DNA from: Apostichopus japonicus
Lineage: Eukaryota; Echinodermata; Holothuroidea; Aspidochirotida; Stichopodidae
Length of the DNA stretch: 64,000 nucleotides
Reading direction: 5' to 3'
Assembly (NCBI RefSeq): GCF_037975245.1
Contig: NC_092562.1
Location: 24,723,554-24,787,553, forward strand
Part shown: in pieces, positions 47,901 to 50,900 of the stretch
Position numbering within the stretch: the stretch's first letter is position 1
How the letters are laid out: every line of letters begins with the position of its first letter
The notes under the pieces: generated by a model
What the model was told of the DNA's origin: nothing
What the model saw: the letters and a program-made list of their open reading frames with translations, nothing else
The model's database searches: none
Program-made: the position numbers and the translations under genes

Positions 47901-50900
47901 ACCTGCTCGTCAGCAAAGGCGCCCGACAGGACTATTGAAAAGGCTCCTTCGTTTTCTCGGCCGTGAATCCCGCCGACTTGCGGCCTATGCACGCCGACCT
48001 CACTTACCTACAGAGTCAGGGTAGAAAATGTGAAACAAAAAATTTTTTTAGGGAAGAAAAATTAAAAAAAAGCGCCAGTGATACTGGATCTAACCTCGTC
48101 GTCCTCGTACCCTCCGGCCAAAACAATGGAATAGGCGCCCTCTGTCTCCCGACCATGGATGCCAGCTACATGAGGCCTGTGTACACCTGCTTCACTCACC
48201 TATTATCAGAGAAGAGACGACTTTATTTATCGCTACTGAGCTGACAAAGAGGCCAGTCAAGTTACAGTAAAAGAACATACCTGTATGTAACACAGGGAGG
48301 GGTATACTTTTGAGCAGCTACGAAAAAACAACAAAGTCACAACAAAATTATGGTTTTAGTAAATACCATTTTTGTGGGGCGTTGAATGTTTTCATCAATA
48401 CACACTAATGGCATGATGTTAGCACATAGATCACACAGGAGACAGGGGGAAAAGAACATACCTGTATGTAACACAGGGGTATACTTTTCAGCAGCTCTAA
48501 GACTTGAAGACAACAAAGTCACAACAAAATTAGGGTTTAGTAGATACCATGTTTTCGGGGCATAGAATGTTTTCATCAAAACACATTACTGGCACGAAGT
48601 TTAGCATATGGATCACACTTAACATTTGAACAAACAAGACATTTGTTAGAAAAACTATTGGGTAATTATCATCTCCCTAGCCACTCTCCAACCCGAGTAA
48701 AGGTAAAAACTTTCAAGGGGGGTGTCCATACTAAGGCAGCTTAAGAAGACTTGTAACTTGCAATTTTAGATTGATCAGCTCAATGGTTATTTTGTTTTAT
48801 TGGCCAATAATGAAGAATGAACATATCTTATTATTCTCTCTAAACGTTCCTACGTGTCGGTCATAATTGTTCATCGACACGGGAGACTATTTGCAACTTT
48901 CCTCGTGTGAACTGCAGATTACTCATTATTTTAAGGCAAACTGCGTCGTGATGGGTAACACAACGAAGTCGATACTGACCATGGTACTTCTACAGAAATT
49001 TCCCAGCGATTCAACAAAGTTTCATCTAAAATATGTAAAATATAGATGTATTACTTAGCTTAACACGTTTCAAAAGTTGGTAATAATCTGATTTTCATTT
49101 GATGAGGAGTAAAAGCTACCCTTTCAAAGGGCGCCATAATTCTATAATCCATTCAGGTCAAATTTTTAATGGTGGTCCGAGATGTTCACATTTCTATTTG
49201 GACGACCAAAATCAGCTTAAGGGAGGGTCATCCATTAGCAACAAGATGTTCACATCAAATTCAGATTGCATTGCATCTAAATACCCCCAAAATAGGTAAC
49301 ATGATAAATTGATATCACTTTGGAGATACTTAAATGAAGCAATAATTTAGTGTAATGCCTACTTTATAATCCACCCAAGAGGGAGTTTTACTGGCCCAAA
49401 GCTGATGTTCTATTTAATAAGCCTACACATCTCTCCTACAGTGTGTACATATTGATGTTCTGTTTAACAAACCTACACATCTCTCCTAGAGTGTGTACAT
49501 ATTGGTCAATCTTTCTTATATTGCTACCTTCTTTCAGACAACCAAATTTTACTGTTTGGACAATTAAAAAGTTTAGCATGGTTACCACGGCTATACAATC
49601 GTGGCTTGCCATGTTATGATACTGAAGGCAAGTTCAGTTCAACTACAAAATGAGAGTTATGCCACTATGAGCACGTTGTACATGTGCTATACAACACAAG
49701 TTAAAAATAAAACTCCTTATTGCCAAACTATCTATAAAAAAGTCTTTGCGGTATATATTCTAAACCAATAACCGATGAGACTTCCACTTGAAATCTGCTG
49801 GATCAACACATACTGATCACATGCATGTTTCATGTGTAGCAAAGCAATACTTCATGAAGACGTTAAATGCTGTGATGAACTGAATTTACCTTCACTGTAC
49901 TTGTTGAAATTCATCTTTTAGAAACAAGCTTTAACTGGTAACAATTACATATAAGACTTCATATAATATGCTGCATATATCTTAACAGGAAGATAGAATC
50001 AATATTAAGAAACATGAACTTACTTGGACCCTGAATTTCCACATTTGGCCAACATGAATGCCTGGAATGGTTCCAAAATGGTTCGGCGGCACAATCGTGC
50101 AGACTTTCGTCCTACCCTGGCATGCCATTCCCTGCAGAAGAAAAAGACCCAATATAAACGAAAAACATAAATCGTTTTACTCAACCGCTTTTGAGATACT
50201 ATCATTACTTAAGAAAACTGACCGATGCTAAGCTTTGGTGCAATGTCACTCATACAATAAGAAACAGACATAAAGAATAAAAGAAACAATTCCTAATTAA
50301 TACAGCTTAAGGAAAACTTAAGTCAGAATAATTAGTTGACTACATCTCCCCCCCCCACCCTACTATACATGTCACTTCTTGAGACAGTCTTAACGGAATG
50401 CCCACATATCGTACAAATGATAACAATGGTGTCTTGCATACACTGCAGTTAGCACTGTCATATTTCAGGGGGAAAAAATTGCGGAAATGTCAGACGGCTT
50501 CGTACATTACATTTCTAAAACTATATTTACAACATTCCCCTTCCCCCAAGTTGATACACTATGGCAATTCGTTTCCCGCCATAGATGAAAGTATTATTAG
50601 TAGTTACTTGGCATTACCTGGCCAAGTTCCACCATCTAAAGAAGGCTAGGCCTACATATCTGGTGTTTTAAGACCCAATGAAGTGCTGATACTTTCTATG
50701 AACGGTGCAAATTCAATCAATTGATTTAAAGGTTTTTCTGGAAATAAAATTAGATCTAAATCTTTGTTCATTTAAAAAACAAAAATAGGCAAACCCTCGA
50801 CTTTGTTACCTTTCCCCAATCTCGGTTAGACGTTGATTTCGCTGAGGCCATCTTTGCTTTCTTTTTACTGCCTTTCAGTTTCTCTCCAGCGTGGACGACT

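Follow-up and report, generated by a model that had tools for sequence, protein, structure and literature searches.

A tandemly duplicated SRA exon in a sea-cucumber UHRF gene, with a UHRF1-like and a UHRF2-like version of the base pocket

We analysed a 64,000-nucleotide stretch of the sea cucumber Apostichopus japonicus genome (contig NC_092562.1, positions 24,723,554 to 24,787,553 of the forward strand; hereafter the window, numbered from its first letter), which carries a UHRF gene on its minus strand. From TTD to RING, this gene occupies 38784..56579 in 16 exons, with GT-AG borders at all introns and an intact open reading frame, and the UHRF domain set UBL, TTD, PHD, SRA and RING is present in that order. 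The TTD, PHD and SRA domains score above the Pfam cut-offs and the RING models slightly under theirs (26.0 vs 27). The UBL exons were recognised by eye, the second (LEKSHTLFDYDVGLNNIIQLMVR...) at 63151..63271 on the minus strand and the first, MWIQVRTFDGK..., placed just past the window end. In the SRA-coding part, all on the minus strand, lie two adjacent exons, a UHRF1-like exon A (48095..48199; VSEAGVHRPHVAGIHGRETEGAYSIVLAGGYEDDE) and a UHRF2-like exon B (47903..48007; VSEVGVHRPQVGGIHGRENEGAFSIVLSGAFADEQ), which are the subject of this study. Exon A comes first in gene order and is separated from B by an intron of only 87 nucleotides (nt; 48008..48094), the 14 other introns of the 16-exon model spanning 388 to 2824 nt. 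The pair is flanked by two common SRA exons, e8 upstream (50024..50131), with the 3' end CAA/gtaagt (a slash marks a splice border throughout), and e10 downstream (44972..45078), which encodes an NKR finger and a serine.

Both exons measure 105 nt, are in phase 0-0 and are bordered by an AG acceptor and a GT donor. They encode the same 35-residue segment of the SRA domain, equivalent to residues 436-470 of human UHRF1 (numbered from residue 436 of the full-length human UHRF1 chain in PDB). Exons A and B share 24/35 residues and 67/105 nucleotides, with 3, 7 and 28 differences at codon positions 1, 2 and 3, respectively. When 127,792 six-frame positions were scored against A with BLOSUM62, B reached 134 and the next best stretch 16; the likeness of the two exons is not due to chance, and no third copy was found in the window. 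On paper, A and B each join e8 and e10 in frame, and the reading frame of the model stays open in the A-only, B-only, A+B and skip forms. The single TAG counted in the exon-B profile match is the acceptor TAG immediately outside the exon, and no stop occurs inside B. The SRA profile is complete with either exon (to position 145 or 146 of 148; 175 and 171 bits) and falls to 104 bits, covering positions 54-145 only, when both are skipped. A preliminary description of this DNA had claimed two adjacent 105-nt exons of phase 0-0 with 24 common residues, both open and with usable splice sites, and the coordinates, the alignment and the in-frame joins bear it out. As in other tandem duplicated exon pairs, A and B are adjacent, homologous, equal in phase, open, spliceable and under selection. 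The intron directly upstream of exon A also contains a 181-bp direct repeat (window 48269-48618; 1.9 copies, 83%).

Comparison of the two exons shows that the duplication is old and that both copies are constrained. Synonymous change between A and B has reached saturation (26 differences at 25.7 sites) at a nonsynonymous distance (dN) of 0.17, and 20 of the 24 common residues are encoded by differing codons. Among 20,000 neutral simulations at equal nucleotide identity, 65% acquired a stop, the maximum number of residues kept was 20 and none reached 24. Since synonymous sites are saturated but amino-acid change is low, both exons must be old and under purifying selection; no similarity was found between the introns that flank A and B. 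A dead copy, or an artefact of assembly or haplotype, is a highly improbable account of B, given its usable splice sites, its lack of an internal stop and its constrained amino acids, and the 64% nucleotide identity between A and B rules out a haplotype duplicate. This candidate explanation was rejected on selection and identity.

Comparison with the human proteins revealed four sites that divide A and B exactly as they divide UHRF1 and UHRF2, namely 447 (A/G), 466 (Y/F), 467 (E/A) and 469 (D/E). Exon A carries A447, Y466, E467 and D469, and exon B carries G, F, A and E, the states of UHRF2 at 476, 495, 496 and 498. Three of these sites are the published UHRF2 pocket residues Gly476, Phe495 and Glu498 (PMC4740795, PMC6212794), the fourth, 467, not being named as a pocket residue. 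In a comparison of UHRF2 with plant SUVH5, these three residues and Ser510 were named as belonging to the UHRF2 pocket, and its loop 490-499, which falls within the segment encoded by our exon, was displaced away from 5-hydroxymethylcytosine (5hmC; PMC4740795). The aromatic residue that collides with or clears 5hmC is Tyr466 in UHRF1 and Phe495 in UHRF2, and the carboxylate on the base is Asp in UHRF1 and Glu in UHRF2 (PMC6212794). The e10 serine is the equivalent of Ser510, so that exon B and e10 together hold all four UHRF2-type pocket residues. The states VGG and GGFADE, which the preliminary description had given for UHRF2, are correct by the PDB sequence of the human protein, and the best PDB match of exon B alone is UHRF2 (49.4 bits vs 41.6 for UHRF1). 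Simple models, which give rough values, put the chance of the four-state match between 1.5e-6 (35 equally mutable sites) and 8e-5 (14 variable sites only). The states of exon A are most likely ancestral, judging from TagI (Tyr55 and Asp58), SUVH5 (Tyr416 and Asp418; PMC4740795, PMC6212794) and a second sea-cucumber SRA gene on another contig (VAG and GGYEDD), and, if so, B and UHRF2 have derived states in common.

Outside the duplicated exon, the sea-cucumber SRA is nearer to UHRF1 (116/154 identical residues) than to UHRF2 (104/154), and this includes the NKR finger of e10, which is UHRF1-like. Even with exon B, the whole SRA scores 223.7 bits to UHRF1 vs 214.7 to UHRF2, which is not what a UHRF2 orthologue would give. 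An isoform with exon B would combine a UHRF2 pocket with a UHRF1-like finger, a combination found in neither human protein. The domains are alike in vertebrates and in the sea cucumber, but two genes there correspond to one gene with two exons here, each exon matching its respective paralogue at 447, 466, 467 and 469. The proposal of the preliminary description, a single gene making two SRA isoforms with different modified-base preference, stands as far as one gene with two selected pocket versions and the agreement at 4/4 splitting sites are concerned; its remaining part, a difference between A and B in preference for 5-methylcytosine (5mC) and 5hmC, is a prediction from the pocket residues.

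Exon A, in which the UHRF1-type pocket is kept, would most likely serve maintenance methylation. Exon B sets the UHRF2-type residues G, F and E into an SRA that is otherwise UHRF1-like, and its most likely effect is a recognition broadened or shifted toward 5hmC, perhaps hemi-5hmC. TET is needed to make 5hmC, and a TET gene is present in the assembly (contig C6; two profile matches). Since engagement of the finger has been linked to hemi-modified sites (PMC4740795), isoform B may read hemi-5hmC. Several reports weigh against a sharp division of this kind. The affinity of the Uhrf1 SRA was similar for 5mC and 5hmC (PMC3120858), the preference of UHRF1 was just 1.5-fold for hemi-methylated cytosine (hemi-mC) and 2-fold for symmetric 5-carboxylcytosine (caC), and UHRF2 likewise showed a 2-fold preference for symmetric caC (PMC7034832). 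Furthermore, the pose of the aromatic residue has been tied to its surroundings and not to its identity as Tyr or Phe (PMC6212794). The published binding results disagree on the extent of the UHRF1/UHRF2 difference.

We then consider how one exon could be chosen over the other, using donor scores from an approximate matrix. The sequence GTRAGTG opens both exons, and as a result 5' splice sites that outscore the exons' own donors are formed anew at the e8-A, e8-B and A-B junctions. In the genomic sequence, 5' splice-site-like motifs thus lie over the two acceptors, TAG/GTGAGT at 48194..48202 for A and TAG/GTAAGT at 48002..48010 for B, both on the minus strand. The e8-A junction, CAA/GTGAGT, scores 9.18 and the own donor of A 6.0, whereas the e8-B and A-B junctions score 9.48 and 11.64 and the own donor of B 7.0. 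The e8-A and e8-B sites outscore 10/15 donors of the model. A GT start is found at three of the 13 remaining consecutive junctions, with scores of 0.63 to 3.85. By eye, A and B are also the only exons among the 15 model donors with a pyrimidine at +3.

This arrangement recalls recursive-splicing exons (RS-exons), whose first bases, once joined to the exon before, form a strong 5' splice site again, as those of A and B do by this approximate matrix. From part-spliced RNA, an exon of this kind can be removed again if the exon junction complex does not block the junction site, which has to be strong enough to prevail over the donor of the exon itself; across the deuterostomes studied, sea urchin to human, annotated RS-exons occur at similar frequencies (PMC6224609). 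What is new here is the presence of the recursive-splicing layout at both exon starts: two duplicated neighbours carry the feature, so that recursion, here predicted from sequence, could select between them. Some observations count against a special role of these sites. The donors of e10 (4.2, below A and B), e3 (6.84) and e7 (6.92; both below B) are low as well, and weak donors are therefore not peculiar to the pair. Moreover, the Val-Ser residues at the exon starts partly force GTRAGT, which is expected at about 6.5% by the codon use of this gene; its occurrence at both starts would have a probability of 0.4% if independent, homologous exons being not fully so.

The short A-B intron is a second candidate for enforcing exclusive use. 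In OGDH, exons 4a and 4b are kept apart by steric exclusion, owing to a short distance from the 5' splice site to the branch point (PMC7969005), and the intervening intron is short, as here. However, a branch-like site lies about 63 nt from the donor in the 87-nt intron, which makes steric exclusion uncertain. Nor does the reading frame enforce a choice, since both the A+B and the skip forms remain in frame. The long AG-free zone before B (74 nt) might have pointed to a remote branch point and was set aside as not distinctive, e3 and e14 having 82 and 124 nt. A TGCATG, which we take to be an RBFOX-like motif, occurs at window 47873-47878, 25 nt inside the intron that follows B, and two more are found further along it; on its own the motif is a weak indication.

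In a wider comparison, mutually exclusive tandem exons such as OGDH 4a/4b and 236 human events (PMC9741552) are, like A and B, adjacent, homologous and anciently diverged, and they too show mostly conservative changes with functional residues altered (PMC9741552, PMC7969005). The present case differs in that the protein is a DNA-modification reader, the frame does not enforce the choice, and both expression and exclusivity are predictions. Overall, alternative use of A and B is strongly suggested, and the recursive-splicing layout together with the 87-nt intron could make the choice exclusive. It counts against this reading that the use of B and the exclusivity of the pair are deduced from the genome of one species.

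We consider it likely that a tandem exon duplication in an echinoderm UHRF gene gave the SRA base pocket two alternative forms, the two exons most likely being used singly. In this scheme, with the short intron and recursive splicing as candidate enforcers, e8 would join A first. If the junction site is then blocked, A would be retained; if it is left unblocked, A would be expelled and e8 would join B. An A-B product would recreate the strongest site and tend to lose B again. A possible but rather unlikely alternative is that both exons are functional and not exclusive, with A and B joined, or with one of them always included and the other seldom, and with B differing beyond base preference, for example in DNA affinity or protein stability. 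The A+B form is in frame and open, the length of the 87-nt intron, which has a branch-like site, may suffice for splicing, and seven further A/B differences are linked to UHRF2 not at all, or to lineage only, all of which would suit such use. Yet an A+B product would insert a second strand-and-loop segment into a compact domain, and none of the other junctions compared forms as strong a 5' splice site as A-B.

The resemblance of B to UHRF2 could reflect shared ancestry or parallel change, a question that rests on seven informative sites and on one invertebrate species. Besides the four splitting sites, positions 453, 455 and 460 unite the two exons with each other and the two human proteins with each other, and seven further sites vary in other patterns. 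When all 35 sites are used, the topology that pairs B with UHRF2 leads by 2.5 log units, which is not significant. Without the four splitting sites, the A+B tree wins, the others being rejected by the approximately unbiased (AU) test (p about 0.028) and barely by the Kishino-Hasegawa (KH) and Shimodaira-Hasegawa (SH) tests (0.0498). UHRF1 and UHRF2 are identical at 30/35 residues in the exon and at 111/154 elsewhere in the SRA (p = 0.13), and the 30/35 compares with 24/35 between A and B (p = 0.15). We see no sign that the exon difference predates the UHRF1/UHRF2 gene duplication, in a test that is not strong. Each of the four splitting states can be reached by a single base change under the genetic code. 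With moderate confidence, since the data are few, parallel evolution fits the likeness of B to UHRF2 better, most probably driven by comparable demands on binding; a pattern of this kind could also be produced by conversion between adjacent exons in the stem lineage of vertebrates.

The opposite view, that the echinoderm-vertebrate ancestor possessed both A and B within a single UHRF gene and that UHRF1 later kept A and UHRF2 kept B, is unlikely. It draws on the four derived states common to B and UHRF2, including 467, which lies outside the named pocket, on the slight advantage of the all-site tree, and on a published description of one uhrf gene as the probable starting condition in animals, bony vertebrates having two (PMC8330077). 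However, it is at odds with sites 453, 455 and 460, with the AU test and with the higher UHRF1-UHRF2 identity in the exon, and it requires an assumed gene conversion. Its fuller version is equally doubtful, namely a pre-vertebrate pair of 5mC-type and 5hmC-type exons, kept exclusive by recursive splicing and later split into UHRF1 and UHRF2, with conversion explaining the non-pocket sites. Isoforms later divided between duplicated genes would be the expected pattern if the ancestral split were true; the sequence evidence here leans the other way. What becomes of tandem exons upon gene duplication is discussed in PMC9741552. Of the two origins that the preliminary description had offered, the split of an ancestral exon pair is not favoured, while parallel invention gives the better fit, with the all-site tree pointing slightly, and not significantly, to the split.

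To place the locus in its genomic context, the assembly (35 contigs, 671,581,487 bases; the window lies on contig C2) was searched for SAD_SRA domains exon by exon, with only the best candidates scored, so that counts are lower bounds. At least nine candidates were scored and at least four matched, these being exons A and B and two SRA pieces on contig C17; no second, UHRF2-like gene was found among these best candidates. The C17 pieces define the second SRA gene mentioned above (about 1305400-1309460), which is known from its SRA pieces alone. Contig C35 of the assembly (16,099 nt) is mitochondrial; COX1 lies in its first 9,900 bases and is open over 517 codons under genetic codes 9 and 5, though not under 1 or 2. 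Bacterial/archaeal and viral contigs, each scanned once, yielded 17 and 1 pattern matches, respectively, and no relative was confirmed among them. The UHRF exon pair is not announced in the titles or abstracts of the open-licence literature matches listed, and the main text of PMC9741552 does not contain the word UHRF.

UHRF1 preserves methylation when DNA is replicated, and the role of the UHRF2 pocket is unsettled. The presence of both pockets at one locus amounts to a natural exon swap, in which protein and finger are constant and the pocket wall and thumb are changed. The role of the UHRF2 pocket would thus be directly testable in an animal in which the search made here found no second UHRF-type gene. 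A single gene may make the two mark readers for which bony vertebrates use two genes. The pattern points to a pocket change reached twice, by gene duplication and by exon duplication, unless the vertebrate pair began as alternative exons.

Several repeats were also noticed elsewhere in the UHRF gene. A minisatellite at window 52634-53107 (78 bp, 6.2 copies, 91%) begins within the 3' end of exon e5 and multiplies the e5 donor, CCCATTAAGA/GTAAGTAT occurring six times, once as e5's own. Another, at window 54227-54728 (61 bp, 8.2 copies, 88%), lies immediately 3' of exon e4 and multiplies the e4 donor region, with six occurrences of ATCTT/GTAAGTACC, one of them at the exon border. The neighbouring exons e4 and e5 are thus both accompanied by multiplied 5' splice sites. 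Finally, the intron before e7 contains an open stretch on the minus strand (window 51207-51329; MLSYFGHIARREGDCIEKVIMQGRVGGSRKPGRPRTRWFDQ), which resembles the end portion of a reverse transcriptase from a non-LTR retrotransposon.
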